From positions 20,635,803 to 20,699,802 of the forward strand of contig JAAOOA010000002.1 in NCBI GenBank assembly GCA_012861695.1: 64,000 nucleotides of DNA. Direction: 5' to 3'. How positions within the stretch are numbered: the stretch's first letter is position 1; every line of letters begins with the position of its first letter. A program made the position numbers and the translations under genes. This stretch comes from Trematomus loennbergii (lineage: Eukaryota; Chordata; Actinopteri; Perciformes; Nototheniidae). Positions 6,201 through 40,454 of the stretch are shown one piece after another. Below the pieces are notes generated by a model. The model made no database searches. It was not told where the DNA came from and saw only the letters and a list, made by a program, of their open reading frames with translations.

Positions 6201-9200
6201 AAAATCCCAATTAGTGACTAGATGGGGATGAATGTGTGACTTTCACCAGCCAATCCTTTTTGTTCTCTGAGTTGGTAGTATAAAAACAAGGCTTATTGTT
6301 TATAAAGAAGGCTTTGAAATTAGCCTCTGAGTAAGTCATACATTCCTATTTTCACCTTAAATAAACTAAGATGGCTATTTGGAACAGAGATCCACCAGAT
6401 GTGATGTATACAAATACATACGGTATAACTTTTTCTCTTTTTTTATTTTTTATGGTTAAGACATATTATGGTCATCATGTGACATTCAATTTCAAAAGAT
6501 ATCCATTATTTGGTTGATTAGTCAAAGTGGGAATAGATTGGTGGGTTGAGTTTCAGTAACATATGAGTATGAGCCGAACAGGTCACATGTGTATATTTTG
6601 ATGATATCATAGGAAGCCTCCCCCACCTCCTCGCTTTCTTCCTCTCGGCCCATTTAGAGGAAGGAAGGCGATGACGACACGGCTCATAATTTTTTCAGCC
6701 GTTTCTATCTGCCTCACTGCCTCCTCAGGAGCTCACACGCAAACACAGTCACACACCCACACTGTCAGATTTACACACATTATATATCCACCCAGAAGTG
6801 CGTTACTTATTCAGAGCAGAGATGGGCAGCTCGGCCGGGGCCATCTATAATTCATACGCCGGAGAGCATTGACTTCAGTGTTTAGGGATATAGCAGTGAG
6901 TGCTCTGCAGGCGGAAGACATAGCTGTCACATCTTGACAGTGAATAATAAGATGTATTAAAGACTCAGCCATCTGCCATGGTCTCAGCACTAGAGATCAA
7001 TTCATCTATAAAAGTTGCATGTGCTAAATGCTTCCCCAGAACACTGATCCTTAACTAAGGGGTACTAAGGGAATTGTGAAGTAGCTAAACTATGTGGGAA
7101 CAAAATTGAAATGATAAATTATTAAAAGCATATACAAATTCAAATAAGATTACACCTTCAACAAACACTTATTGCTACATAAATTGCATTAAAATGATTT
7201 GGGAAGTGACAAATCAAAAATAATAACGTAAAAACAATAGATATATTCAATAAATATTCAGTTAAGAGTCATCCAAATAGTTAGATTTATAATAAGGAAT
7301 TAGATTAAACATATAGCTATAAGTAATGGTTTTATTGTTTCAATTGTTAGCTTAAATGTAAGGATTGAATGGTAAAATAAATAGCTAAAGTATTGTATAA
7401 GTAGTTGAATTTATAATCTATAAGTCATTTATACAGTTGACAAAACTTGCTAAAAATATTGATAAACTTTTGAAATAAAAGTTTATTAAAAGAATTGGAT
7501 GAACAATAAGAATACTTTGCCCAAAGTAATGCATAAATAGTTTAAATAATAGCTTTAAGTGATGGATAAATGTTCAAAGGGCCGGATAAGACAGTTGTGG
7601 TAAACATTGACAACTGAATTGTATGAAAATGTATTGTTACAAACCACTTTTTATTAACTTAACTGATGAAATACTTAAGTTAATCTGATAATATAATTAG
7701 TCCCACAGTGGGCACATCTTTAGTGTTACAGCAGACACAGAGTGCAAAAACAAGAGTTATCAATTAGAGAAGGACGAAAATGATCATTCATAAGTGAACA
7801 GCAAAGAGACATGGGGGGATATATCAAACTACAAAAGACCAATCACTCTTGTTGGTTTAGTTCAAAAGTAACTGTCAATGGAAAAATGAAGTGAATTCGG
7901 CCCGCTCAATAAGCCTGAATCCAACTGTTAGCCTGTGTACTGGGAGTTTTTTTTTTCCCTAAATTTGTACACACAGAGTCACTGACAAAAAGTAAAGTAA
8001 TCGTGAGAAGAAAGGGGAAATTATTCAGATTCTACTGTAAAACCGCAATCCTCTCGCTCAACTTCAATCAGAGGTAGATGCAGTTCCTCAATCTGACAAA
8101 GAGTCATCGCTGGAGATTCTGCTGCTTTAAAGATTCTGCTGCTTTAAAGATTCTGCTGCTTTAAAGATTCTGCTGCTTTAAAGATTCTGCTGCTTTAAAG
8201 ATTCACTCAGTGATTTGAGATCGCACGAATCAGTCAGAAGTCAGAAGACTGACCTGTTGAGTCATGAACATCGTCTCTGAGCTCTCCTCCTCAAATTTCC
8301 TCTGACATCACAATTATCTCTTTGCCACGTCTCGGTCCACTGCCATGTGTGCGTTGTCCTGTCCCTCGAAACTGAAACTGACACCTTTAGTACAGTTGGT
8401 CATAGAGCCAATGTGAAAGTGAAAGAAGGGTGAGACATGACATCAAAAACATGCAAAACCAGAGCGGGCACATTTTCTTACCTACTGTTTGTCAATAATG
8501 GATATAAAGTGGGAGGGAAAATGAAAGAATGTAGAATCGGTTGGATGGGCGTGTTGATCGAAGGAGAGTCTGGTAAACAACAGGCAAACTCTCTGCCAAT
8601 TTGATGCACACGCCAAATGTTATTCCATGTTGTGACGACACTCCAAAGTTGACTGAGAACATAATACGTTGTCAATTAGTCAAAGTCACTGTTTGGAGTC
8701 AATACAATATTAAGCACTACATGAAACAGAAGCCTTTCATTTTCACTCATAAGGAGTAATGTGTTTATTCTCACCGTTTGTTGTTGCTGTACCTTTGTCT
8801 TGGATCACACATTTTCAAAGTTCCAGTATAAAGGGAAAGGGAAATCAGATTGTAATTTTTAAAATGAGATATTAATAGAAACTTGCTCCAGTTTCTAATA
8901 TGAGAAACATCAGCATCACTACTGGCTTCAACTCTACACATTCACTAAGTTCATGTGCTGTTTATTTGTTTAACAAAAAGGACTGTCTTTCTACTTGGAA
9001 TCCCCCAGCTTAACAGTGTCCCTAAACATTTTAGAATTAGTAAGATTCCTTTTTATTTCATCTGGGGCATTATCAGGAGAAGCCAAGAGACTGGACTTTT
9101 TCCAAATGTTCCCAGCTCCAAATCATAAAGCCTATTTGATCATTCATTTTTTAAGAATTGTTTCTAAGTGGACCAAATCCAAAAACACAGAACATGATTC

Positions 9201-18229: not shown

Positions 18230-21200
18230 TCACTTAGCTGCTCGATTGTCCATCATGCCTGGAAAAGACAACAAAAATAAAACACAACAAACTCAGTCTT
18301 GTTAGTTTCATTATAGATAAATATGGACAATTACAGTAACAATAACAGTATATTATTTGTTTTAATATAATTTAGAATCAATAATATTTTGTATATCAAT
18401 TTGACACTGCTTAATTTTGTATTGTATAATAATTCTCATGTTACATTTTTGTATTATTGTTTACACATTCGAAAAAAATCTAATCAATTATAATTTCACA
18501 AGAGATGCATTCACTTGTGATTTTGTTGGTTATCCATCATCATTATCTCAATTATATGGTGTTTATTACCTTTCAATGTCTGGCGGACCTCGTTTGGCAA
18601 GTCATCCAGGTCCACTAAACTCTTCAGCAGGTGATGCGCCGTGGCCTCTCCCGCCCCCCTCCTGCTCTTCCACTCCACCAGCATCTTCAGCTTCTGTATG
18701 GTCACATCTTTCTCTGCCGCCTGGATGTCGTCCAGCTCCCTGGAGTTCAGGTCCAGATAGATGGCCACCTGCTTCCACTCCTTCCCGAGCCGCTTAGCCA
18801 CCTGCAGTAGCTGCTTCTCCGACATGTCCTGACCCGGAGTCATCGCTGGTTTCACTCCATCTGGAAAAAGACCCACAGGTACTTTATGTCAGTATAACTT
18901 TAGGGGAACAGGTGCACCGGTAAATAGTTCAGGTGTGTACCGGTTTCAGATGACCTGATTTGGGAGAAAACTAAAGTTTGTGCCTGAAGTTATTCTCAGA
19001 TCAGTTACCTGACACATCCTGCCACCGAGTCCTTTTACAGCCGAGTTCTTCTTCTGAGGGGCTGCTGCTTCTCTGTATGCCTGTAATAGAGGGACATGAT
19101 GTGAGACAACCGGTAAGAGCTGATAGCATGGTGGAAAACAACAATCTTATTAAAAAAACAAGAAGCTTACTGATGGTCCTTTTTCTTGACTTTTTTTCTG
19201 TGTTGTCCACACAGTCACCTAAGAGAAGAAAGTAAACATCATCACTGCTCTGGAGTTAAGTAACACTACACACAAACTTAAAAACACAACAATATGTGGA
19301 GCCCAGTCAAAGCTGGTTTATTTGCAGATGAAAAATCCTTGTTTCTTTTATTGTCAACTGTTTTATAAACAAAGAAAAATGGTTGAAAAACTATAACTTT
19401 TTAAACAAATATGGTCCGATTCTTTCGCCTCAGCTCCTAGCTTTTAGTTTCCCCACCCCCTACAAATCACCAAACATATTCAGTATGAGATTCAATGAGC
19501 AGGTACCTTCTCTGATGGTGGCGGACCATACGGTCTCCTCAGTGTTAATCTCTATGAGAGACAATTTAAAGGGAGGAGGCTGCTCGAAGAAAGCTTCAAA
19601 GTAGCCCTTCATCTTTGTCACAGCAAGGGTGAATTTCAAATCCTGTACAGGGACAAATATATACATATTTATACAACGAAATATAATTAAATTGTGATGT
19701 CTGTATACTACTGTGTATTTATATATAAGAGTAGACACACAAGCATATGCGAAGAGACCCACCTGAGGTTTGATCTCTCCCTCTGGCTCACTAAGGAGAC
19801 GATACGTCCCCTCGTCCAGTTTACATGTGGGAGGCTTCTCTATTCGGATGTAGCGATTCTTGTAGCCCCGCACCTGTTTGCCTATATCCTGTTTGACATA
19901 AGGAGAGCAGGAAGACAACGTAAAAGATAAGCCACTTCCTTGCAGTTTGATGAGCAGGCTAAATGGTGATTAACATTTACTAATGGAAAAACTGAAGGTG
20001 TCTCAAAGGAAAAAACATCCACAGATCCGGAAATAACTATGATATATCAAATCAAACCAAATCAAGTTTTATTTATAATAGCACATTTAAAAGCGATTTT
20101 TGGTCGAGCCAAAGTGCTGTACATGTAATAAAAACACATTACTACAATCACAATAAAAGACAATAATTTACAACAGAAATATAAAAAACACAGGGAAAAG
20201 TCAGGAGTCGTGCTCCGCTCTGACTAGAAGGCCAGGGAGAAGAAGTGTGTCTTTAGTGAGGATTTAAAAACCCCTAGTGTCTCGGCCGACCTCACATGGA
20301 GGGGCAGAGTGTTCCAGAGCCTGGATATATATGAGAAGGAGTTTGATAAGGTCATTAATATTAGTCACTAATCACTCGCCAAATATACTTTAATGTACTA
20401 CAAAAAACTGAAAATCTGTGGCCAACTCTACCAAGTGTTGAAACAAAATTAACAAGAAGTGAAAGTTACTGTTTGTTTTGGCTCTGATTCTGTTCTCAAT
20501 TTTGGCACACAATTTCATTTTGCTGGAGTTTTATCCAGTAGGCAGTTGTTATGATTAAAAGTCATGATTTACATTTTTAGGAAGACTCAAGGGATGGTTT
20601 GACAAATGGAATATTTATTGGTAAGGAAACAGCACAAAGAAATTTGGGGGATTTTGGTCCGTTTGATTTTTTTCCCTTGGGCTCTCCTAAATGAAAACAC
20701 TTAAATGTGCATAGACCAACAAACTTGCTCATTCACATCTTAAAAAAATCTTTACTGGTTCTATTTAAATATGTGTAAGAAGTGGTAATCAAAATGAATG
20801 TGTAATTAATTTGCCTTAGGAAGCAGAGTAAAACATGTGCACTTATTATACAAGCTTGTATGTATTCAAACGTCCTGTCGATACCCAGTCATTTAAAGGA
20901 ACAGATACAGCAATGTCAGTCAGTCAGTCCAGACAGATGGTGAAAGCAACAAAAGAAACAAAGGTTCAGACATGAAGTAACTGTTTAAAGTGGAAAACTG
21001 CAACTATAGGAAGTCTCTGAGAAATGACCACATTTCTCAAACAGCTGTCACATTTGTATTGGTTTAAAAATGCACCTTAAGACCGCTGACAACGACAGCT
21101 CAGACACCAAGTCTTAAAAGGAGCAAGTCAACTGTCAATCATCTATTTTTGAGAAAAAAAATGTATTCAGTTCCACATTCACTTTTCATCTAATGCTCAC

Positions 21201-24200
21201 ATTGATATCAGATGAACTGTTGGTGGCCAGGTAGACGTGGAAGCTGTAGTTGTTGTTGCCACTGCCCACCTGCTTGTAGACCAGGACCACCCCGTGGTGT
21301 TCTACAGATTGGCTTGTCTGAATGATGGGACCCACGGGAGACAGAGACGTCACGTTCCACTTAACATGGCTCCCCGAGTGGTCCACTGTCGGCTCAATGA
21401 GAGGACGGTTGTCCTTTATGTGCAGGACACTGAATGTCATCTCTTTTTCTGGATCTGTGTGACGTCATATGGAAAAGAGAAGGTTCGATGTTTCACTTAG
21501 AGCAGCTTTAAATCATAGATAAAAGAATATGATACTCACTAAAATAACCTATTTTGTGTGAAGGTCTTCAAATAAGTATACTCTAACATCAACTAAATGA
21601 CAACCTCCAGGCAAAATCTTGGAAAAAATGTATACTATTAACATTGCATTATGGGCCATGGAGTCACCACAAGACCATGGTTATGAATGATATCCTACAC
21701 CAGGGGGTATCCAAACTTTTTTCAACGAGGGCCACATACAGAAAGATATACGAAGGGCTGGGCCACTCACCAGAGGTATATTGCCTCATAAGTTCAGTTA
21801 TAAGTTAGCAAAATCAATCAAATGTAGGTAAATTATGCTTGTGAGTGTTGGCAGCTCATCCCTTAAAACAGAAACCTCAGAGTGATTATAATAAGGAGAA
21901 ATAGGAAGGGTGTATTTCAAGCTTGTTATGTAAATAAGTTATTGGGCTTTTTTCTTATCAACTAAGATATGTTAGAAAATGTTTCCAACTTTAATTGACT
22001 GAATTGATTTGAAAAGTGGTCTTATTAACACATGAATACTAGTGTGTAATATATTGTACTTCTTAAATATAAATGTAAAAATATAAGACAAGCACAAGTT
22101 TCATTTGTGGGCCATATTCCATTATACTTTTTAATTTGCTGAGGGCCGATTCAAAATGGTCCGCGGGCTGCATTTGGCCCCCGGGCCGTAGTTTTGACAC
22201 CCCTGTCCTACACAGAATACACAGGAGTCCTGTACTTCATTCTCACCAGCAAGGCAGATGGAGTGAGGGAACTGGATAGACGTGAGGACAGAAGCGTCCT
22301 TATTGACTGTGTCCACGTTAAAGATGGGTCCAGCAAATTTCCAGGAGTCCGGCAGTAACGCGCCAAACCTGGACCAGGAGAGGACTGAGTACCGCACGAT
22401 GACCCGCTCCGATGCTTCAAACACCAGGCCGGTAAGCGAACACTCGTATGTGCCCTCTCCTTCCAGCTGCACCCTGAAACATACAGAGTCAGAGATGATG
22501 GACATACAGACTCAATTCAAATGTGTACGGACAAGATCAGTGGTCTTACTCACTGCAATCGTCCCTTAGAGATCCTCCTGGGGGTAACAAGCTCCTTGCC
22601 ATGGCTCTGTCAAACAGACAATTTGGAAATTATGTTATATTAACGCAAAGAAAAATGTATCAAGTACATTTCAAAAGGTTGCTTAAAAAATTATCTCAGT
22701 ATTATAAAGTACAATTGAACTGTGCCTGTGGGTATGTATGTATTATTATGTACAATTATTTGTATTTTTTTGTTTGGCCTTATGATAAAATTGGATGACC
22801 ATCTTAGTTTTCACTTCATATAGCACTGTAAATTGCATGAAATTATGAGCTGTTTTGTTTTTGTTTTGTTTTATGTATGTTTTGTGTGTGTGAGGACCCC
22901 AGGAAGAATAGCCAATGCGCATGCTAGTGCTAATGGGGATCCTAATAAAGAATAAGTATTGATATGTAAACAAGAGGAAGGCCTACACAAGTTGCTCCCT
23001 AATATCATACAGATCTCAACTATATTCAAGTATAATAAAAATACTCAGGCAGACAACACAATTAAGATCACCACATTTTGTCAAATAAACATCTGAATTC
23101 TGCGCTCACCTGCTGAACGGCTTTGCATTTCACACAGCATGATTTGAAGTGACACTCTTCTGCAAGGACATATGTATTAAACAAAATGGGATGTTGTTAA
23201 CTGGGTGACACAATCTGCAGAACATTTGTTGTGCTGATATATCAGTTACGATCTGCCTACCTTTCCCTTTTGAAACCTCAACTTCAGGTCCAGGGATTGA
23301 ATCTAAAAGGGTGAAATAATTAACGTTAACATATTAAAATCATGTGTCGGAAAATTAAAGCTTGTGTTAAGTCTCCGGGAAAACACCCTAGATTATCTTT
23401 TCAGATTGTGGGCAGATTTGATTTTGGTTGTGAGCGAGGGTGGTGCACAGTTAATTACACATCAATATTGTGTTCCAAGAAAGCCAGCAAAGTTCTGCGT
23501 TTTATGGCGTAATTATGCAGTATTGCTGCCATTAAAATGTTATCCTGAGTTATGACTAGAGCCATTGCAACTATGACAACAAACTGACATGGCCATCTGG
23601 ATGTAAAATACTCAGTCTGACAAAGCAGTTACTGACACAAGTTGCATTCACCATTTTTGGACTCTTCCGCATTGGCCTCTTCATGGTCTGCAAAGAACAT
23701 AAAGGAGATACATTTAGGTAAACACCATTTGTTTTTTTACCTTGTTAAATCCTTGGTTCCAAACATTTTGAAGGATTGATAAAAGGATGTTGGTTCTTAC
23801 CTTCCTTTTCTCCATTCTTCTCAGCACAGCCTTTTGGTGAAAGAAAGGAGGATAATTAAGGATAAAGTTCAATATTTTTTTTTGCGACATGCAGCAAAGG
23901 CCGTAGATAGGATTTAGAATGCAGATGGCTGCTAAGGGTTTAGCCTTCTTACACGGGGCCCTCGCTTGACATAAAAAAAAAAACGTATTTATCTTCTTGC
24001 AGATATAGATCAGAATACCAGCAATCTGTCTCTTGTCTGTATGGTTAATGTGAAGCTACCAATCGCAGCAAATTAGCTTAGCTTTAAACAAACACTGGAA
24101 ACAGGAAAACAGCTAACCTGGCTCCGTGCAATGGTAACAATGTCTTACTGCTGACCCCTCTAAAGCGGATTATTAAAAGCATTATAGCTCATTGAGTCCT

Positions 24201-27200
24201 GAAGCCTTACTTGGTTACATAACAAGCTCTTGGCGATGATAAGACAAGAAAGTCACTACTCCTGTGGCAAAATACATACTTTGGATTTTGTACTTTTAAA
24301 ACAAAGGTATAAAAATGATAATTAATGAGCTTTAGTTTACTGGGGCTGGCTTGTGGATTTTGTTAGCTTCTGACAGAGCCAGGCCATTTTATGCTAAGCT
24401 AAATGAACAATGTCCAGGCTGTAGCTTCATAATTAATGTACAGACATGAGTGATATTGATCTTCTTATCTCACGCTCTACTAAAAAGTAATTTATGACTA
24501 AATGACTATTCATTAGATGTATGATTAGTGATGAGTCAAAGGCAGCCTCTCACCAGAATTCTCATCCTCCTCTTCGTCTTCCTCTTCCTCCTCTGAGCTC
24601 TCCTCAGTGGATGTTTCTGTGTTCTCTATTCGACAATTCAAAGTGTAAGTGACACGTGTAAAATATTGAATAATGAGTATAAGTGATTTATGCCACAAAG
24701 TGTAAATGTTATGAGAGAAATAAGTTGCATTTAAATAAGGGAATTACATTTAAAATTATGTTTTTCAGTTATGTAAAGATCAAATTAGTTAAACTTTTGT
24801 GATGTGATATGTGTGTGTTTACCTGAACTGCTGCCGTCACTTTCTCTCAGGTTATCTGTAACATATTAGTAATTATTTTAGAGTTGGTACCATTTAAACT
24901 AATTCCATAATGTCAAAATATGAGAAAAGGTCAATGTAGATTCCCATCTTATTATTACCATACATCATTACTAATACTTGTTGTTAACCAGATAACCATC
25001 ATCATCTTTACGGGAACTTTCAAAGGTTTGATAGTATCATCAACCCATTTATGTGGTTATCATATTGCCCAGCAGTTAAGTTCCTCACCCACTTAGGTTT
25101 CAGAACTAGTAAACAAAAAGTCTCATGATAATTTGACCTGAACAGGAAACATACAATTAAAAACAGAACTTAATTCTATTTAGCCACAAACGTTTCACTA
25201 ACCATTTTCTACAGAATAATCCATTACTATATAGGGGGAAGTATGTTAACTTGTCTGCTTCTTTACTTTATCATGCATCGAAGCCCCAACTCAACTCTGT
25301 TTTAAACTTCCCTAAGGAAAAGAATAATAGAATCTTAATGTATGTCAGAAAATGTGTAAAAGTACCAAGTTTTACTTTGTGTCACTGGGGTTCTTCCTTT
25401 AACAGGTGCAACCCCAGGCAGTGAGAAACCTCAACTTTTAGTAAATATCTATGTTTGCATGCAGTGTGTGTGTTTTCATCCATATTACTCATAAAAAATC
25501 CCTCAGCATTTCTGACTTACACCACTAGCTTTTACATATCCATCACTCCTTAGCAGTTGAACTGTGGCACCCTGTGAAGAAGCCTGTGATAAGTGCCATG
25601 CATTAACATTCTGGCACATTTATATAGATGGGTCCAGAGGAGCTGCTGCGTCCTCTCTTCCCAGCAGCAGTGAATGCACCAGGCCATCTGGCTGAGTGCC
25701 TGGCCGCCTAATGGATGGAGCCCGTCCTCTCTAGCCCACAGAGTTTTATCTTAGACTAACAAGCAGATGCTGCCATCACTGCTCCACACGCAACACCTCC
25801 CTCATCAATCTCTCTCCTCCACTCGCCTCGATCTGTCTGCTTCACCTCTCACTGCACTCACCCTCCTCCATTTCTCTCTCCTTGTCCTCGTATGCCTCCT
25901 AAGGCCAATCTCTCTCTATACTGCTGCCGCCACCTCATCTGAGCCAGCAGGCATCCCTCTTCACTCCGATGGACAAACAAGGTGGAGATAAAACACCAGT
26001 AAAGATACACACATGCAGACACAAACAAACACACACTATTTAGCAGTTTCAAAGGTTGGGACTGGTTCATGGGTGTTGCCTGCCATCTGCTGGTCACAAC
26101 AACATAGCAAAAGCACTGCTTAAAAAGGTTTATGTGTGGTGTACAGCAATGGCTATGAATCTTTTGGCGAGACATGACCGATACACAATAAATACTGTTT
26201 CCATTTTAGTGTGTCAATATAGATTCAGTGTCTCCTTCCTTTTATATTCATTAAGACACAGACATATCTTCAGGATACTCTGCAACTTCTACAGGTGCAC
26301 CATAGAGAGTATCCTGACTGGCTGCATCACAGCCTGGTACGGCAGCTGCACCGCCCTCAATCGTAAGGCTTTACAGAGGGTGGTGAAAACTGCACAGAAC
26401 ATCACTAGGACGGAGCTGCCATCCATGGAGGACCTTTACTCCCAGCGCCTCAGGAAGAAAGCCCTCCGGATTATAAAAGACCCCATCACCCCAGCCACAA
26501 ACTGTTCTGTCTTCTGCTGTCTGGCAGGCGTTACCGCAGCATCCGGACTAAAACCACCAGATTCAGAGACCGTTTCATCCCACAGGCCATGACATTACAT
26601 TACATTACATTACATTACATTACATATTGTATTGTCACTTGTTATACGCTTTTATCCAAAGCGACTTACATACTCAATACTGTGGGCAATCCCCACAGGA
26701 GCAATTTGGGCTGAAGTGTGAAGCCTGTGACCTAAGATTTTAATGGGCATAACTACACTGTAGCTATGTTCGTATGACAAAATAAAGAACCTTGAACCTT
26801 GAATCTTGAACCTTGCCTCATGTTACCTTACATACATTATGCAAATTAGTTGTACACAATGTGGTAAACACGTTTCACATTTGTGAGAAATAAAGCACTC
26901 ATATTTGACAGGTAATCTGTATAGATGTATTTTATCTGGTATCTGGAAAGAAGTCAGATCACTGGTTTCTTAATCATCAGCAGTTGCACATGTATTACTG
27001 CTGCAGGTTGTTATAAAATGGACATTAATAATGCTAATGGGATTATTCTAGGCAAATGTTAGAGAAAAGTCTGACAAATACTTCGTGTACAGGTGTGCAG
27101 TGTTAGGATATAGCAAATGCAAAACTGCGTACACCAAAGATCGTATGACTGTGCATAAATCTTCCTGCCCTTTAATGCAAATGTATTTGAGAGCAGGAAG

Positions 27201-29776
27201 GCCAGAGTGAGGTCAGAGAAAGTGGAAAGGGAAAGAAGAAAAGCAGGAAGACAAAAGAAAGATAGATAATAGATGGGGATTTACTACATTTAGATATTAA
27301 AAAAGGAACGAGAGACGTAGCCCAAACACTGTAAAAAAACAAAGACGTTAACACAGGTGGCTCTACGTCACAACATGTGCGGTGAGAGAAAGCGAAACCA
27401 GAAAGAACAGTGAGGGGAGGGAAAGAATGAGATTGGTGTGCGGTTTACCTTTGTTTTCCATCGTGGGGACATCTCCGTCTCTGTAGGGCAGAGGAGATAA
27501 CATTCAGACATCTTTAAGTTACACTCTGGGAGGATTTAAAGAAGGAAGACAGTGACAGCTCTTAAAACCGTGCAGCTACAGGCTTGTGTAGTACGCCACT
27601 TCTGCTTTCACATAGGAACACACAGCCACATAAAAAAACAGGAAGTGTGTACATGCTGCCTTCCTTCATCTCACTTTTTCACACAACCCATCCTGTTGGG
27701 TGATAGATTCACCTTTCCACCCCAACTCCCACACTGACCTACTTTCAGAGCAGTGTCGATGGTACAGCCATGGAAAGATACTGGCGGTTACTTTCCTCAT
27801 CAAACAAAACTGGTCTGGACACTTTTTCTGCTTTCATTACTCAAATAAAGCAAGGGGATTGGACGATTTATATTTAGAGTTGAACCTCTATTTACTTTAA
27901 GTGGCATCATATTGTGTTGATTTGATCATAAGGTTTCATCCAAGTATCGATATCTGCACTGTAGCTTTGCGGAATTGATTCCAAGCACATCGTTCTAATT
28001 TACTGAATGTGATTGTCCATACATCTGCATTATCGTTTTAAACATGTATGAAAAGGATTTTATCAAAAACCTGACATTAGTTTGAACCATATCACCCGAC
28101 CGTGCACAGCAGGCATGAATACCTGATGCTCCTGACTTTTTAGCTCCCTAAATGTTTTGATATGTGCTCCACTATCCATGAATGTAGTATCAAACAAACA
28201 ATGAGCCCAATCCATGTGTAATGTTGTATCTGAGCAGATCACTGGTGCAACCTGTTGACGCAGGCTCAGCTTCAACAAGAGGAAACACGCCTGAGATCCC
28301 TCAGGGGGAAAGACAGAGAGCCCAACCTACAAGAAGACAAGGTCACCACCAGCAGGCATGGAAAAGTGTAGCAGCTTGGCGATCAAAAGAAAAATATGAT
28401 CTATCAGGAAAAGGATTATAAAGACTGGACGAATTAGGTTATTTTATTTAGCGTCTGTTAACCCTGATAAGGCCCTGTGGTTTCCTTTGCTTTCAAACAT
28501 ATGTCCAGGAAACAATGTTTTCTCCTCCTCTTCAAGGTCAGCTCTTTCTCTCTCTGCCAGATAGTCACAGCACAACAACAGCAAGGCTCATTAGTTGCCA
28601 TGGTAATCTTCTCTTCCTATTAGCAAAGTTCTACTTTGCGAAGCTCTGATGTTTTCAGACAATAAATAAACTCCCTGCACAAGTTCTCAGACTTTCTCTG
28701 CTCTCACTTGTTTCTATCTTACTCCCACAAAATATGATAACCCAGTCCTCTGCATCTGGCTGAAAGATAAAAGCCACAGCATTGAAATACTTTCTACAAC
28801 TTGTGCAAACACAATGAATTGAGAGGACATCTGTGTGCAGATAAACAAATGTCAGTTGGCTTCCACCGAATACAGGAAAAGTACAACAACAACAACAACA
28901 ATTGTGTCTTTCTACTGATTTTAATAAGGTAAGGTAAATTAAACTATATACATTTCCCTGGATATAATTTCACTAATGCTTTAAAAGTTCTAACAAAGCG
29001 TTGTGGTATTGTGAATTCAGGGACTTTTATAGCCCTCATCACTGGTTCAATGATACCCTTGCAAACATGGTAGCATTCACAGAGGACAATGAGTCATCAG
29101 TATCACCTGTCTGTGGTTGACAATACAGCTGGCACAAAAACGTGAGCATTGAATCATAAACCATTCATTCAAAACTGTCAGCAGGAAGTTATAGTGGAGT
29201 GTTTGTTTGTAGTCCACTGTATGATAGGTTACACAGGGGCATGTTTTCTCTCTTACAATATTATATACTGATTTTCAAGTTTATTTACAACATCTAATCT
29301 GTTACAATAATTGGTATAAAACGTTTTATATGTATTGCTTTACAACTTCACCTTTTTTTTTTTAATCAATCGCTCTACAATCGCCCCCTTCGAACAGCTT
29401 GATGTTACGTTGTTGTCAGTGAGTGATCACAATATAACAACACAAAAGCGTTCAGCGCAAACGGACAACAACAAAGTGTCTCACTCCAGTCACTTTCTAT
29501 TTGAACATATATTCAATTACACGAGAATATAACGCGGAGGAACTCATTTGTCAATGTTTATAAATGCACAAACACATGAGCTCAGAACAGACAGCAACAA
29601 AAGACACCACTTCCTGTTTTGAAGCGACACGATTTAAGCGCGTATCCTGTGCATGCATACTGTCTGAAAGTACAGCACGAACACTTTTGTAAAGCCAAAA
29701 GAAGAAACCTGTGTGTTAAAATATCAAAAAGGTCTTACCCGTCCTCCAGGTCAGAAGCCGCTCCGCAGCTCGCCAT
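18230..29776 (-). CDS. FIIND (ZU5-UPA) and death domain protein, complete, 17 exons
   Basis: Exons in coding order: 29776-29739, 27480-27449, 24855-24823, 24625-24554, 23830-23801, 23687-23652, 23302-23261, 23159-23110, 22606-22554, 22473-22247, 21448-21201, 19888-19763, 19642-19507, 19218-19171, 19080-19009, 18860-18570, 18258-18230 (TGA). They join in frame to 1563 nt, 520 aa. Residues 1-94 are acidic and low-complexity; 95-111 hold C97, H98, C102, C103 and C106. Residues about 120-287 are a ZU5-like half with LPDSWKFAGPIFNVDT and FPHSICLAG. H214 and S241 match the FIIND catalytic His and Ser, 27 residues apart. Residues about 242-374 are UPA-like (GVVLVYKQVG, NRYIRIEKPP). A basic linker follows, then a death domain at 427-511 (LLQVAKRLGKEWKQVAIYLD, LLKSLVDLDDLP). 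FIIND proteins known elsewhere end in a CARD, while PIDD and UNC5 combine ZU5-UPA with a death domain. It is probably cytosolic: I see no signal peptide or membrane segment. Function is inferred; no symbol is assigned. Confidence 0.85.
18570..18860 (-). CDS. Death-domain exon of the FIIND-death domain gene
   Basis: One 291-nt exon encodes residues about 415-511. The pattern of six amphipathic helices is visible: LLQVAKRLGKEWKQVAIYL (helices 1-2), SRELDDIQAA, TIQKLKMLVEWK and HHLLKSLVDL. The LGKEW motif with Trp and a second WK typify death domains rather than CARDs. No PYD features are seen. Confidence 0.85.
20047..20345 (-). repeat. Dispersed fish repeat with AAATCAAGTTTTATTTAT start
   Basis: It begins with ATCAAATCAAACCAAATCAA and TTTTATTTATAATAGCACAT, then CCAAAGTGCTGTACATG and TCACATGGAGGGGCAGAGTG. 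This sequence type is common in fish genomes, probably a retroelement 3' part in reverse. It lies in the intron between the two UPA/ZU5 exons of the minus-strand gene. Family not assigned. Confidence 0.55.
21201..21448 (-). CDS. FIIND exon with conserved His and Ser of self-cleavage
   Basis: Encodes residues 205-287. H214 lies in FSVLHIKDN and S241 in VTSLSPVG. In human NLRP1 (H1186, S1213) and CARD8 (H270, S297) the catalytic pair is also 27 residues apart, and the cut falls just before the Ser. Here residue 240 before the Ser is Leu, where those proteins have Phe. The next part, GVVLVYKQVG and YSFHVYLATN, resembles the start of the UPA half. Confidence 0.8.
21701..22205. mobile_element. Non-autonomous hAT-type element, 505 bp, with exact 8-bp target duplication
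   Basis: The ends are CAGGGGGTATCCAAACT and its imperfect inverse AGTTTTGACACCCCTG. They are flanked by TCCTACAC at 21693-21700 and again at 22206-22213. An 8-bp duplication and CAGGGGTGTC-type ends are characteristic of hAT elements. It contains GGGCCACATA and GGCCATATTCC subterminal motifs and no transposase. It is inserted in an intron of the FIIND-death domain gene between exons 22247 and 21448. Confidence 0.88.
22840..22961 (+). mobile_element. LINE 3' end fragment
   Basis: GGACCCCAGGAAGAATAGCC followed by GCTAATGGGGATCCTAATAA and an A-rich end is a familiar fish non-LTR retrotransposon 3' terminus. It is a short 5'-truncated copy in an intron of the minus-strand gene. The clade is not assigned. 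Confidence 0.6.
23885..24520. repeat. Dispersed percomorph-type repeat
   Basis: Contains AGCTTAGCTTTAAACAAACA, CTGGAAACAGGAAAACAGCT, AACCTGGCTCCGTG and its inverse GACAGAGCCAGGCC, then GGCTGTAGCTTCATAATTAA and GTACAGACATGAGTGATATT. I recognise these motifs from a very abundant percomorph repeat, which supports the guess about the organism. It separates two short exons of the FIIND-death domain gene. Confidence 0.6.
26260..26590 (+). pseudogene. LINE ORF2 C-terminal fragment (non-LTR retrotransposon)
   Basis: Translates to the region after the reverse transcriptase of fish LINEs: SILTGCITAWYGSCTALNRK, then ALQRVVKTAQNITRTELPS and LRKKALRIIKDP. The fragment is truncated upstream and loses the usual frame near its end, so it cannot make a working enzyme. 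It is probably of the L2/CR1/Rex1 type, named from memory. Confidence 0.8.
26588..26722 (-). mobile_element. 5'-truncated SINE (V-SINE-like), reverse orientation
   Basis: A pentamer ATTAC/ACATT run (26590-26625) leads into TACGCTTTTATCCAAAGCGA and TGTGGGCAATCCCCACAGGA. Read in reverse, this matches the 3' half of the SINE at 2857-3042. The tRNA-like head is missing. It sits exactly between a LINE coding fragment and a LINE tail, suggesting insertion into the LINE. Confidence 0.7.
26725..26816 (+). mobile_element. LINE 3' tail
   Basis: ATGACAAAATAAAGAACCTT followed by a repeated CTTGAA(C/T) heptamer, the usual 3' end of L2-type fish elements. Probably belongs to the fragment at 26260-26590. 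Confidence 0.6.
27481..29738 (-). other. First intron of the FIIND-death domain gene
   Basis: GTAAGA donor just after the 38-nt first coding exon, CCTACAG acceptor at 27481. AT-rich with a short ACA repeat near 28890. No feature recognised. Confidence 0.75.
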
Positions 29777-32583
29777 CTTCGCCACCATCCTCCTGTGTAA
29801 CCGGACCCCGTTACACTCTCTGTCCACCCAGCGTGCAGCGGCTGCGCATTAAAGCACCTGAAAGGCAATATGATCCTATCATCTGCTATCAGTATCTTGT
29901 TAACACGCAGGACAGTAATTGGCGGTAATGGTCATCGGAGCCCTCGTGGCTGAACTGCTTCTTATCACTTTGGTGCAGCATCCACAAGCAAAGCATCTGG
30001 ATTTGACCGGAAATATTCCTAAAAACCATAAAGAAATCAACCGTTTTGCAGAGTATATGTGAATGTTTTGTTTCCTCTTACAAACACGGTGCTTGTGTGC
30101 AAGCAATACATCAACACAGATGTTAACATCATGACGTTCATAACTGCGCTTTTTTTATAGCACAATGCGCAGCTTTCAAGACTAGCGATGGCTGCGCAGT
30201 TGCAGCGCAGTGCATGGAGAAGCAATACTGAAGGCAACATGTGGGCGGGGCCCAAAATCCCGCCTTTTGCACGGGCTCCATTAATATGTTGATGATTTAC
30301 AGTAGAGTACAGACTGACTTTCACTAGATACCAAGAATAAAGTAGTCCCTGGTCGAGTAGATAAGGAGATGTTTGCTGTTGCATTAAATACAAGATTGAA
30401 ATCTGCTGCATGTCTAGCTCTGTTGTTTGTGGAGTGAATACAGCTAGAATAAAGGAAAACAATTAACATTTTAGACCCCATTCATAATCATTGTTTTGCA
30501 TTACTTCGCACCATAGGGTTTAGGGTTTATCCTGCAAGCAAATAGGCTATCCCAGTAAAGTAAAGTATACAAAAACTTGAAAGGGAGTTGTAAAACAAGA
30601 AGCAATATTAGCTTATTCTGTTTCCCCTGCTTAAAAAGAAGACCGCTGTGTTCTTCTGAGACGTATTTTTTAGCTGCTGATTTTCTCCCACATGTAAACT
30701 AAAGACTAAAGAAAGACTCGAGAGGGGCAAGAGCACTCCATAATACAACACAGAAAGCGGTAAAACATACAACAGATTGCAGAACTGCAATACCCAGCAG
30801 ACACCAGCAGATGTCGCAGCAGACAACAAAACAAGTAGTAGAACTCAGCAGAAAAAACATGCTTCCTCAAATGATCTTGCAGAAGATCACATTCAAACTA
30901 GATTCATGACGGTTCGACTAATAAAAGTTTCAACATAAAATAAAGTTGAAATAAAAATAATTTAAGTGTCAATCCGTGGCAAAAGCTCACTGTCCATCAC
31001 AGAGAGCTCTCTGTGAGCGTCTGAAATGTCCATTGGGAGAGATGAGTGAATGATCAAGGGCTTTCCTATTGATTTTCCTAACATTGATCTTTTTTCCTTT
31101 TCCCCTATCTCGATTTGCTCGTCCAACTTTCACGAATAGATGTGTAGTTTGCAGCAATGAGGGAGGAGAAAGAGACAGATGCTGGAGACTTACAGGACAG
31201 GAACATTATCCAAGTCTCAGAGTCTAAAGGGAGAGATCATTTCCTTGGTGCAAGGAGAGACAGCAAAACATTAGACTCAGTGGCGAGACGATACCACCAA
31301 TACCTCAGGAAATAAGAGGAGATAAAGTGAGAGAAGTGAAGGGAAGGGGAAAATAGAGAGAAAAGGACGAGAAAGGTCAGAAAGAAACGAGACAGTGGGT
31401 TGTGAGGAGACTAAGTAAGTAAATACAAAGATATGCTCAGTATATAAGAAGAAGGGAAGCTGTTATTCAAGTTATTTAAACAACAGCTTGTATGATTTAG
31501 GGGGATATTTTGGCAGAAATTGAATATTATAATCATGATATGTTTCCATTCCTTTCGTATTTGATCCCCAGCACCTGTGGTCCACATGTCGTGTCCTTGA
31601 AGTGTGAATGCAAAGGCAAAACACCAAAATCCAATTTACTAACGTTGACATTGCCAACAGTGTCGTACAACATACCATATACGACATAGTGCATGTGAAT
31701 GTTGGTCTCTCCTTAGCAGGTAGCACGTGTAATGGCAGCATTTGCTTCCAATGTATGAATGTGAATGCTGACTTGCTAGAAAAGAGCTATTCAAATGCAG
31801 TCCATTTACCTATTACATTGGGAACAGGTCCTCTTTACAGAGTCAGAGTCATGTAGCACCTCCGAAGGGGGAGGGGTATTCAGTTGGTTGCAATTTACAT
31901 CCTCAACACTAGATGTCACTAGACTCTACACAAAAGTTAGGACTTTGTCTTTAGGATTTGACTACCTAAAGACTTGACTTGACTTTTAGACAATAAAAGG
32001 ATACTTAACCTCAGATCATTAAAGGTCTAAGACTAGAAACTGTACCACAGACGGTTTAGAAAGGGGTACATTTTCTGTATCTGTTTCACATGGGTTTCAC
32101 TTTCACCAGTGCCACACCCCAACATTTTTTTAAACCTGTGTTGTTCAATTTATCAATCAGGAACAATAAAGTGTACTGACTGACCAATACTGTCATATTT
32201 TGAGTCATGCTCTAGCTAATGTGGCTAAAATGCTGAGCTGTTGTGCTTTCACTCACAAAGAGATGGTTCGTTATTTGCAAATGGACATTTAATGCACTGT
32301 TTTGGTATGCATTGGTGGCTTGACGATTTTGCCAATGTAATTATCATGCGAAGTGTTGATGCACAAAAAATACTTGTTTTTTGACTTGCATGTCAAGTTT
32401 CAAAGACTTGAGACTTGCCTTGGACTTGATCCAAAACATTGTCACTCACCCTGAAATGCATACTTTATATCAATATTGTGTAATGATTGAGGTTAATTTA
32501 AAAAGAAAAAAGGTATTGGTCGTTTTCAAAAGAAACAACTGATATCATATTCTAATCTCTACTATAGCTCAGTTAAAACAGTA

Positions 32584-39445: not shown

Positions 39446-39791
39446 AGTGACAATCTCAGATGCTGTGGAGCAGCAATGTGGGTTTCATTAGACTGTTAAT
39501 GACCATACGTAATGATGTAAGAGTATTCATGATTTCCATCAGTGCTCCAACAGACACTGATGCTGCTCCTCCACTCATATCGACCATATAACAGCAGACA
39601 GGTCTTCCTCAGTGGAGGGGGGGGCACCTGCTGTCCCGCGTTGCACTGGCTGTGATGAGAGTAGCATACATTAAAAGTGTACAGCTGGAAGGAAAGGCAG
39701 ACCTGTAACACCTGATCGGACTTATAATATTAGCACGCACGGGAGACGCAACACGTCCATTAGGCTTCTTTCCATCCCGGGAGACCCCAAA

Positions 39792-40454
39792 ATGATCTCG
39801 TCTTGTTTGCCAGGCGGCGGCAGGATAACGTGCAGGACCACTGGCACCCTTTTGTCGGCGTGTCTGGTCTCCGCTTGTCATGCTCTCCGCACCTGCGGGG
39901 AGGTCCAGTGCGGCGATGGCCACCAGTGCTGTCCGCCCATCGCCAACGGGAACGGCAGTGCCAACTCCGCGGTGCGGTGCTGCAAGCTCCCTATCCACAT
40001 ATTCTTCGACAACGTAGGTTGGTTCACGCGGAAGCTGTCTGGCATCCTCATCCTGTTGCTGCTATTCGCCATGGGCTACTTCATTCAGAGGATCATCTGC
40101 CCGCGGCCCCGCCGGCCTCCGCACAATGACCGCAGCGAGGAGCCCTCCCTCTTTCACGGGCACGCATCGGCGTCCCAGGACTCCCTGCTGGACCGGTACC
40201 CCGAGTACAGCCTCGGGGACTTTGCCTCTCCGAACCTGCCAGCATACGACGAGGTCAAATATTTGCCCACGTATGAGGAAAGCATGCAGGAGATGCACAG
40301 AGACCGGTCCGACGATAACTTGCTGTCTGAAAACGAGATTATCGGGCAGGGCAGAGAGAGAGCGGCGGGACCGAGAGCCGCGGAGCAGAGGCGGGAAGTC
40401 CTCGAGGAGGCTGCACCGCAACACAGCCCGAGGACATCCCGGAACTCTGTCTGA
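39792..40454 (+). CDS. C3orf80-like single-pass membrane protein, single exon
   Basis: A 220-aa open frame, GC-rich against AT-rich flanks, in the C3orf80 position between IL12A and IFT80. Layout: hydrophobic N-terminus that could act as a signal peptide (residues 15-32, TTGTLLSACLVSACHALR); a short Cys-rich outer part with C35, C40, C46, C47, C63 and C64, including CGDGHQCCPP; a membrane helix at about 83-101 (SGILILLLLFAMGYF); basic stop-transfer residues (PRPRRPP); and a cytoplasmic tail with two LPxY motifs, LPAY at 149-152 and LPTY at 158-161. This plan, small Cys-rich ectodomain plus PY-type tail, resembles Shisa, WBP1, VOPP1 and CYYR1 proteins, whose tails bind WW-domain ubiquitin ligases. 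That similarity is inference; C3orf80 has no established function known to me. The ATG opens the frame, and AATAAA follows 109 nt after the stop. Confidence 0.88.
   Translation: MISSCLPGGGRITCRTTGTLLSACLVSACHALRTCGEVQCGDGHQCCPPIANGNGSANSAVRCCKLPIHIFFDNVGWFTRKLSGILILLLLFAMGYFIQRIICPRPRRPPHNDRSEEPSLFHGHASASQDSLLDRYPEYSLGDFASPNLPAYDEVKYLPTYEESMQEMHRDRSDDNLLSENEIIGQGRERAAGPRAAEQRREVLEEAAPQHSPRTSRNSV

Follow-up and report, generated by a model that had tools for sequence, protein, structure and literature searches.

The window analyzed, a 64,000-nucleotide stretch of the Trematomus loennbergii genome, carries on its minus strand a gene of 17 exons that runs from position 29776 to 18230, spans 11.5 kb, and encodes a protein combining a FIIND with a death domain (hereafter the FIIND-DD gene and protein; Table 1). 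The exons have GT-AG borders (17/17) and splice in one frame into a protein of 522 residues from the ATG at 29776; an in-frame ATG four codons upstream, at 29788, gives 526 residues and is the start used by the Pagothenia borchgrevinki model P0002, which begins MVAKMASCG. The exon count and frame of the initial annotation were recovered, but its length of 520 residues was not. A false joining of separate genes was ruled out by the in-frame GT-AG exons and by full-length relatives in many species.

Table 1. Features of the FIIND-DD gene, in positions of the window.
Feature	Position	Strand	Description
Exon 1	29739..29788	-	Start codon, start of acidic N-terminus
Exon 2	27449..27480	-	N-terminus; GT-AG, in frame
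Exon 3	24823..24855	-	N-terminus
Exon 4	24554..24625	-	N-terminal acidic Ser/Glu-rich stretch
Exon 5	23801..23830	-	N-terminus
Exon 6	23652..23687	-	N-terminus
Exon 7	23261..23302	-	N-terminus
Exon 8	23110..23159	-	Conserved CxxC (C103, C106) N-terminal of FIIND
Exon 9	22554..22606	-	FIIND start (ZU5-like); Pfam FIIND 125-254
Exon 10	22247..22473	-	FIIND, ZU5-like part
Exon 11	21201..21454	-	ZU5 end and UPA start; carries catalytic site
His216 codon	21420..21422	-	Aligns with CARD8 H270 / NLRP1 H1186
Glu225 codon	21393..21395	-	Aligns with CARD8 E279 / NLRP1 E1195
Leu242-Ser243	21339..21344	-	Candidate self-cleavage bond (= CARD8 F296-S297)
Exon 12	19763..19888	-	UPA, including K307-P-P-T-C311 loop
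Exon 13	19507..19642	-	UPA end
Exon 14	19171..19218	-	Linker, basic cluster
Exon 15	19009..19080	-	Linker: Ser/Glu-rich, then KRTR
Exon 16	18570..18860	-	Death domain (Pfam Death 432-501)
Exon 17	18230..18258	-	Final residues and stop codon

The FIIND-DD gene sits between il12a and a DUF4719 gene. On the plus strand, il12a ends about 1.5 kb beyond the 3' end of the FIIND-DD gene and scores below its Pfam cut-off (PF03039, 20.1 bits against 25 bits), and the DUF4719 gene, presumably C3orf80, lies at 39675-40451 (PF15843, E = 7.8e-34). Beta-propeller exons taken as ift80 are weakly matched (PF23335, E only 0.033). An in-frame stop at 25954 on the minus strand interrupts an alternative first exon that is similar to the N-terminus of Sebastes P0006. 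The window contains 16 ISRE-like sites (GAAANNGAAA), compared to 4.9 expected; five of them fall within 500 bases (8368-8844) beyond il12a as seen from the FIIND-DD gene, whose intron 2 holds a further two (27225 and 27388). The nearest site upstream of the start (31093) is 1.3 kb away, and nothing is claimed about an interferon response of the gene.

The FIIND-DD gene is confirmed to be real and intact and not a chance reading, as its product passes the Pfam cut-offs and has a close relative in P. borchgrevinki P0002, which shares 98% identity across residues 100-522, the entire part used as query. An exon search of the T. loennbergii genome, in which the best candidates were scored, found six strong matches, all at this locus, and four further matches that are FIIND stretches with 32-33% identity. 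Among the best 120 of 342 matches in the homologue search, 12 came only from the source “lgn” on contigs of 2.0-3.0 kb; compared to the 11.5-kb gene, this length suggests that they are spliced transcripts of other species.

All three Pfam domains of the FIIND-DD protein exceed their curated cut-offs: FIIND (PF13553, residues 125-254, E = 3.5e-34, 117.7 bits against a cut-off of 25.8), UPA-FIIND directly behind it (PF23679, residues 257-374, E = 2.8e-23), and Death (PF00531, residues 432-501, E = 2e-7, 31.5 bits against 22.6). The death domain takes the place of a C-terminal CARD, which Pfam did not find, and a family-specific death-domain profile built from 120 of the aligned rows matched 247 of 248 rows. 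With residues 1-94 bearing a net charge of -28, the architecture first described for this protein (acidic N-terminus, FIIND, linker, and death domain) holds. NCBIfam has no family for either P0002 or zebra P0142.

The order of ZU5-like part, UPA, and death domain is shared with PIDD1 and UNC5CL, the latter being a ZU5-UPA-death domain protein of about the same length, and membership in the UNC5/UNC5CL, ankyrin, or PIDD families has to be considered. However, these proteins belong to another ZU5 family by Pfam: PF00791, which UNC5CL carries, was not reported in the FIIND-DD protein by a Pfam search at E up to 1 whose filters remove the majority of weak matches, nor did Pfam find the leucine-rich repeats (LRRs) and two ZU5 units of PIDD, which is cut after each of its two ZU5 domains. 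In searches of solved structures, all significant matches to the ZU5-UPA part were NLRP1 or CARD8, both with the fish profile (E up to 10), for which the only other lines touching the start of this part were argonaute-2 (E = 0.93) and LSG1 (E = 0.57), and with the tetrapod profile, which gave one CD47 line (E = 0.1). UNC5 was not matched by the fish profile, and ankyrin was matched in the death domain and not in the ZU5-UPA part. An alignment with human NLRP1 (hhalign, probability 97.8, 27% identity) places His, Glu, and Ser in register. Membership in these families is thus rejected at the domain level and very improbable overall. The initial annotation had named UNC5 or ankyrin matches as the outcome that would overturn its NLRP1/CARD8-type FIIND; that assignment stands, although UNC5CL had been left unconsidered.

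The FIIND-DD gene corresponds to the uncharacterized fish gene si:dkeyp-97b10.3, with which it shares end-to-end similarity and domain order across the orthologue group. The open-licence literature yielded no mention of si:dkeyp-97b10.3 and no study describing a FIIND-death domain protein of this family. The named species among the best 120 of the 342 matches are all teleosts, with many entries called si:dkeyp-97b10.3. A lengthened query retrieved 48 proteins, including those from turtle, caecilian, horse, zebra, and birds, and the zebra protein (P0142, 42% identical to P0002 over 465 residues) had 230 matches at E up to 1e-10, from 8000 scored candidates. The best 120 of these 230 include placental mammals (perissodactyls such as horse, artiodactyls such as sheep, whales, carnivores such as dog, bats, pangolin, hedgehog, moles, shrew, sloth, and armadillo) as well as marsupials, echidna, turtles, alligator, birds, geckos, and a caecilian, whose entries are often named “CARD8” or “NLRP1”. 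Pfam confirmed FIIND, UPA, and Death in zebra, chicken, echidna, green turtle, caecilian, and microbat. The Pipistrellus entry P0198 is filed as CARD8, yet Pfam places a death domain at its end, and it was therefore assigned to the FIIND-DD gene; other mammalian entries named CARD8 among the matches listed bear a precomputed Death domain.

The evidence for mammals consists of gene models in databases that carry the Pfam domains. Of the 120 matches listed, four have no species name (P0213, P0228, P0229, and P0241), and the named ones include no primate, rodent, lagomorph, or afrotherian; no shark or other cartilaginous fish is among the matches listed. Human cells therefore seem to be without a FIIND-DD gene, as far as the named rows tell. 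The initial annotation, which knew of no such gene between IL12A and IFT80 in mammals, missed that orthologues are present in many mammals, with no named primate or rodent row listed.

A 28-row tree of FIIND and UPA sequences separates the FIIND-DD family from a group (97/95) made up of human CARD8 and the NLRP1 of human and rat. Within the family, the tetrapods (100/100), mammals (98/93), and reptiles with birds (92/82) are grouped, whereas the branch of the whole family (83/97) is not starred. The root falls inside the family, with the distant outgroup joining among spiny-finned fish and herring, Arapaima, and Paramormyrops next to the tetrapods; as this contradicts the species tree, it is best read as a misplaced long outgroup branch. 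Other oddities are the pairing of green turtle with gecko and a long fish CARD-type row that is only 45% filled. The FIIND-DD protein is most likely an old protein of bony vertebrates, and its position in the tree suggests that it forms a third lineage of FIIND proteins, next to those of NLRP1 and CARD8.

The catalytic site was examined in an alignment of 248 rows, comprising the window and 247 homologues; of 270 proteins retrieved, 23 had been set aside as fused, rearranged, or partial. All rows but one carry His216, Glu225, and Ser243 (247 of 248; the exception, P0229, has a gap), and the spacing of these residues (+0/+9/+27) is that of H270, E279, and S297 in CARD8. Only 27 of the 250 FIIND and UPA columns are invariant at that level, so that three chosen sites would be invariant by luck about once in 800 under independence of the columns, an assumption that does not hold. 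Pro244 is kept in all 247 lettered rows, and S243-P244 matches S1213-P1214 of NLRP1, in which the triad is H1186, E1195, and S1213 (PMC9700037). With regard to DPP9 binding, the comparison covered this S-P at the start of the UPA. In CARD8, cleavage requires S297 and H270 and is lowered by E279A (PMC3210808). The residue before the predicted cut (P1) is Leu in 246 of the 247 lettered rows and Phe in one (P0234, leatherback turtle), such that the predicted site at residues 241-243 is S-L↓S and not S-F↓S. The FIINDs of CARD8 and NLRP1 that were studied are described as sharing a fully conserved SFS motif, cleavage is severely impaired by F296H in CARD8, and PIDD cuts itself at HF↓S (PMC3210808). 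GAIN domains, on the other hand, cut at HL↓T/S with the Leu held in a hydrophobic pocket (PMC4810088, PMC11697300). Because of the S-L↓S site, the self-cleavage carried over from NLRP1 and CARD8 by analogy in the initial annotation is not warranted, and despite the kept His, Glu, and Ser, self-cleavage of the FIIND-DD protein can be called plausible only. A TFS motif at residues 211-213 (exon 11), which would imply a lost catalytic His, was rejected as the cut site as it lies 30 residues too early; the aligned register leads to SLS at 241-243 with His216 kept.

The T. loennbergii genome also contains a very large FIIND expansion (e.g., L009-L020), for which 150 of 437 first-look candidates were scored, giving 151 matches. 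Several copies overlap stop codons at places where the reading runs through introns. The FIIND site was readable at 17 of the 24 distinct places fetched; 10 of these have Leu and 7 have Phe. The ten distinct places with Leu (L004, L006-L008, L011, L012, L018, L019, and L021-L026) have H-L-S where mammalian NLRP1 and CARD8 have S-F-S. The two copies checked end in a CARD, namely L012 (H-L-S; Pfam E = 5.1e-16) and L010 (P1 Phe; E = 1.8e-13). A further FIIND-UPA gene with H-F-S (L015, 5066-6963) has a ZU5 that by eye is closest to the FIIND-DD family, and no effector domain was found downstream within the fetched stretch.

The main rival reading is that cleavage has been lost and that the FIIND-DD protein, like UNC5b, which is not known to be cut, may form a closed ZU5-UPA-DD unit, kept together by contacts within the molecule, and either signal or inhibit as an intact chain. 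The near-invariant P1 Leu would fit this, as UNC5b has a Leu (L677) at the matching position and Phe is important in CARD8 (PMC3210808). On the other hand, His, Glu, Ser, and the following Pro are kept in 247 of 247 lettered rows, GAIN domains work with Leu (PMC4810088, PMC11697300), and H-L-S recurs in the other FIIND family of this genome, whose H-L-S copies may or may not cut themselves. We regard the closed chain as unlikely.

The UPA carries a KPPTC loop, in which K307, P308, and C311 are kept in 246 of 246 lettered rows and P309 in 245 of 246. This loop aligns with the UPA-UPA contact loop of NLRP1 (PMC8081665): both Pro residues of the rat interface (N, P, P, and V at 1032, 1034, 1035, and 1037) are kept, N is mostly replaced by D or E, and V by C. 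In CARD8, the UPA reduces the threshold for CARD filaments about 100-fold (PMC7794386).

Gene models of several fish join modules of this family to caspases. The order CARD-caspase-FIIND-UPA-DD is found in a livebearer (Xiphophorus) and a goodeid (Girardinichthys), and cod P0155 combines this family's death domain with CARDs and a caspase but no FIIND. Cod P0121 and P0125 have the order DD-FIIND-UPA-CARD, and cod P0153 has FISNA-NACHT-LRR-FIIND-UPA-CARD with a FIIND from the FIIND-DD family. Cods in general (P0121, P0125, P0129, P0138, P0153, and P0155) show many mixes of death domain, FIIND, CARD, and caspase, with up to six death domains and six CARDs per chain. Such automatic models may join neighboring genes, yet they recur in several species, and this recurrence suggests that the FIIND-DD module is linked to caspases.

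The death domain names no partner. Against the 18-sequence profile, its matches were, in order, THOC1 (1.7e-10), ankyrin-3, PIDD, CRADD, ankyrin-1, FADD, and RIPK1, with THOC1, ankyrin-3, PIDD, and CRADD scoring alike. A choice of partner by sequence was rejected because the ranking shifts with the profile, PIDD being first in some (e.g., fish) and THOC1 in others (18-sequence, tetrapod). THOC1 is a nuclear protein, and the basic linker leaves room for a nuclear role, in which the FIIND-DD protein, whole or released, would enter the nucleus through this linker and act on RNA or chromatin complexes and not on caspases. A bipartite basic pattern is present in 116 of 118 tetrapod linkers (121 rows minus three with short linkers) compared to 15% in shuffles. 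In fish, however, the strict pattern occurs in only 45 of 127 rows (18% in shuffles) and is missing from the window's own row, ankyrin, PIDD, and CRADD match the death domain almost as well as THOC1, and the fusion models lead to CARD and caspase. A nuclear role for the protein is improbable.

The N-terminus changes faster than the remainder of the protein. Compared to Sebastes and Oreochromis, it is 59-65% identical, whereas ZU5 and UPA are 88-96% identical; Sebastes alone gives 59% for the N-terminus, 93-96% for the FIIND, and 88% for the death domain, and dog compared to zebra gives 63%, 94-97%, and 73%, respectively. Rapid change is to be expected of disordered regions in general.

Among known systems, human CARD8 is similar in having a disordered N-terminus, FIIND, UPA, one terminal death-fold effector, the same His/Glu/Ser spacing, and no NACHT or LRR, but the FIIND-DD protein differs in its death domain in place of a CARD, its P1 Leu in place of Phe, and its position outside the NLRP1/CARD8 group. 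NLRP1 has the best-scoring FIIND and shares the S-P after the cut and the KPP of the UPA loop, whereas the FIIND-DD protein is without NACHT, LRR, and CARD; cod P0153, however, pairs a FIIND of this family with a CARD in an NLR model. In zebrafish Gbp3 and Gbp4, a FIIND module occurs together with a CARD (PMC4932187), although these proteins differ in having a GTPase in front and a CARD as effector.

The likeliest reading, though in our judgment no better than an even call, is that the FIIND-DD protein is a CARD8-like sensor that releases a UPA-death domain fragment. As such a sensor, the protein would cut itself between L242 and S243, and both halves would stay together as a non-covalent pair, with the quickly changing acidic N-terminus as the putative sensing part. 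Degradation of the N-terminus by the proteasome would free the UPA-death domain fragment, which may then cluster through its UPA, nucleate a death-domain assembly, and activate a caspase via an adaptor with a death domain and a CARD. More tentatively, the family may represent a third FIIND sensor of bony vertebrates that was lost toward humans and mice, forming an inflammasome that is built on the death domain and triggered by a protease or by degradation (Leu↓Ser self-cleavage, UPA-DD release, and caspase activation) in which effectors were swapped among death domain, CARD, and caspase in fish.

NLRP1 and CARD8 have been stated to be the sole FIIND sensors of mammals (PMC11760013), and a third FIIND family, present in dog, sheep, horse, bats, and chicken, gives a different picture of where the degrade-to-release switch came from. 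A loss of CARD8 has been reported for microbats (PMC10249858), and the Pipistrellus “CARD8” P0198, being a FIIND-DD gene, calls for caution with entries filed as “CARD8” or “NLRP1”. The FIIND-DD family also allows one to ask directly whether the degrade-to-release switch can drive a death domain.
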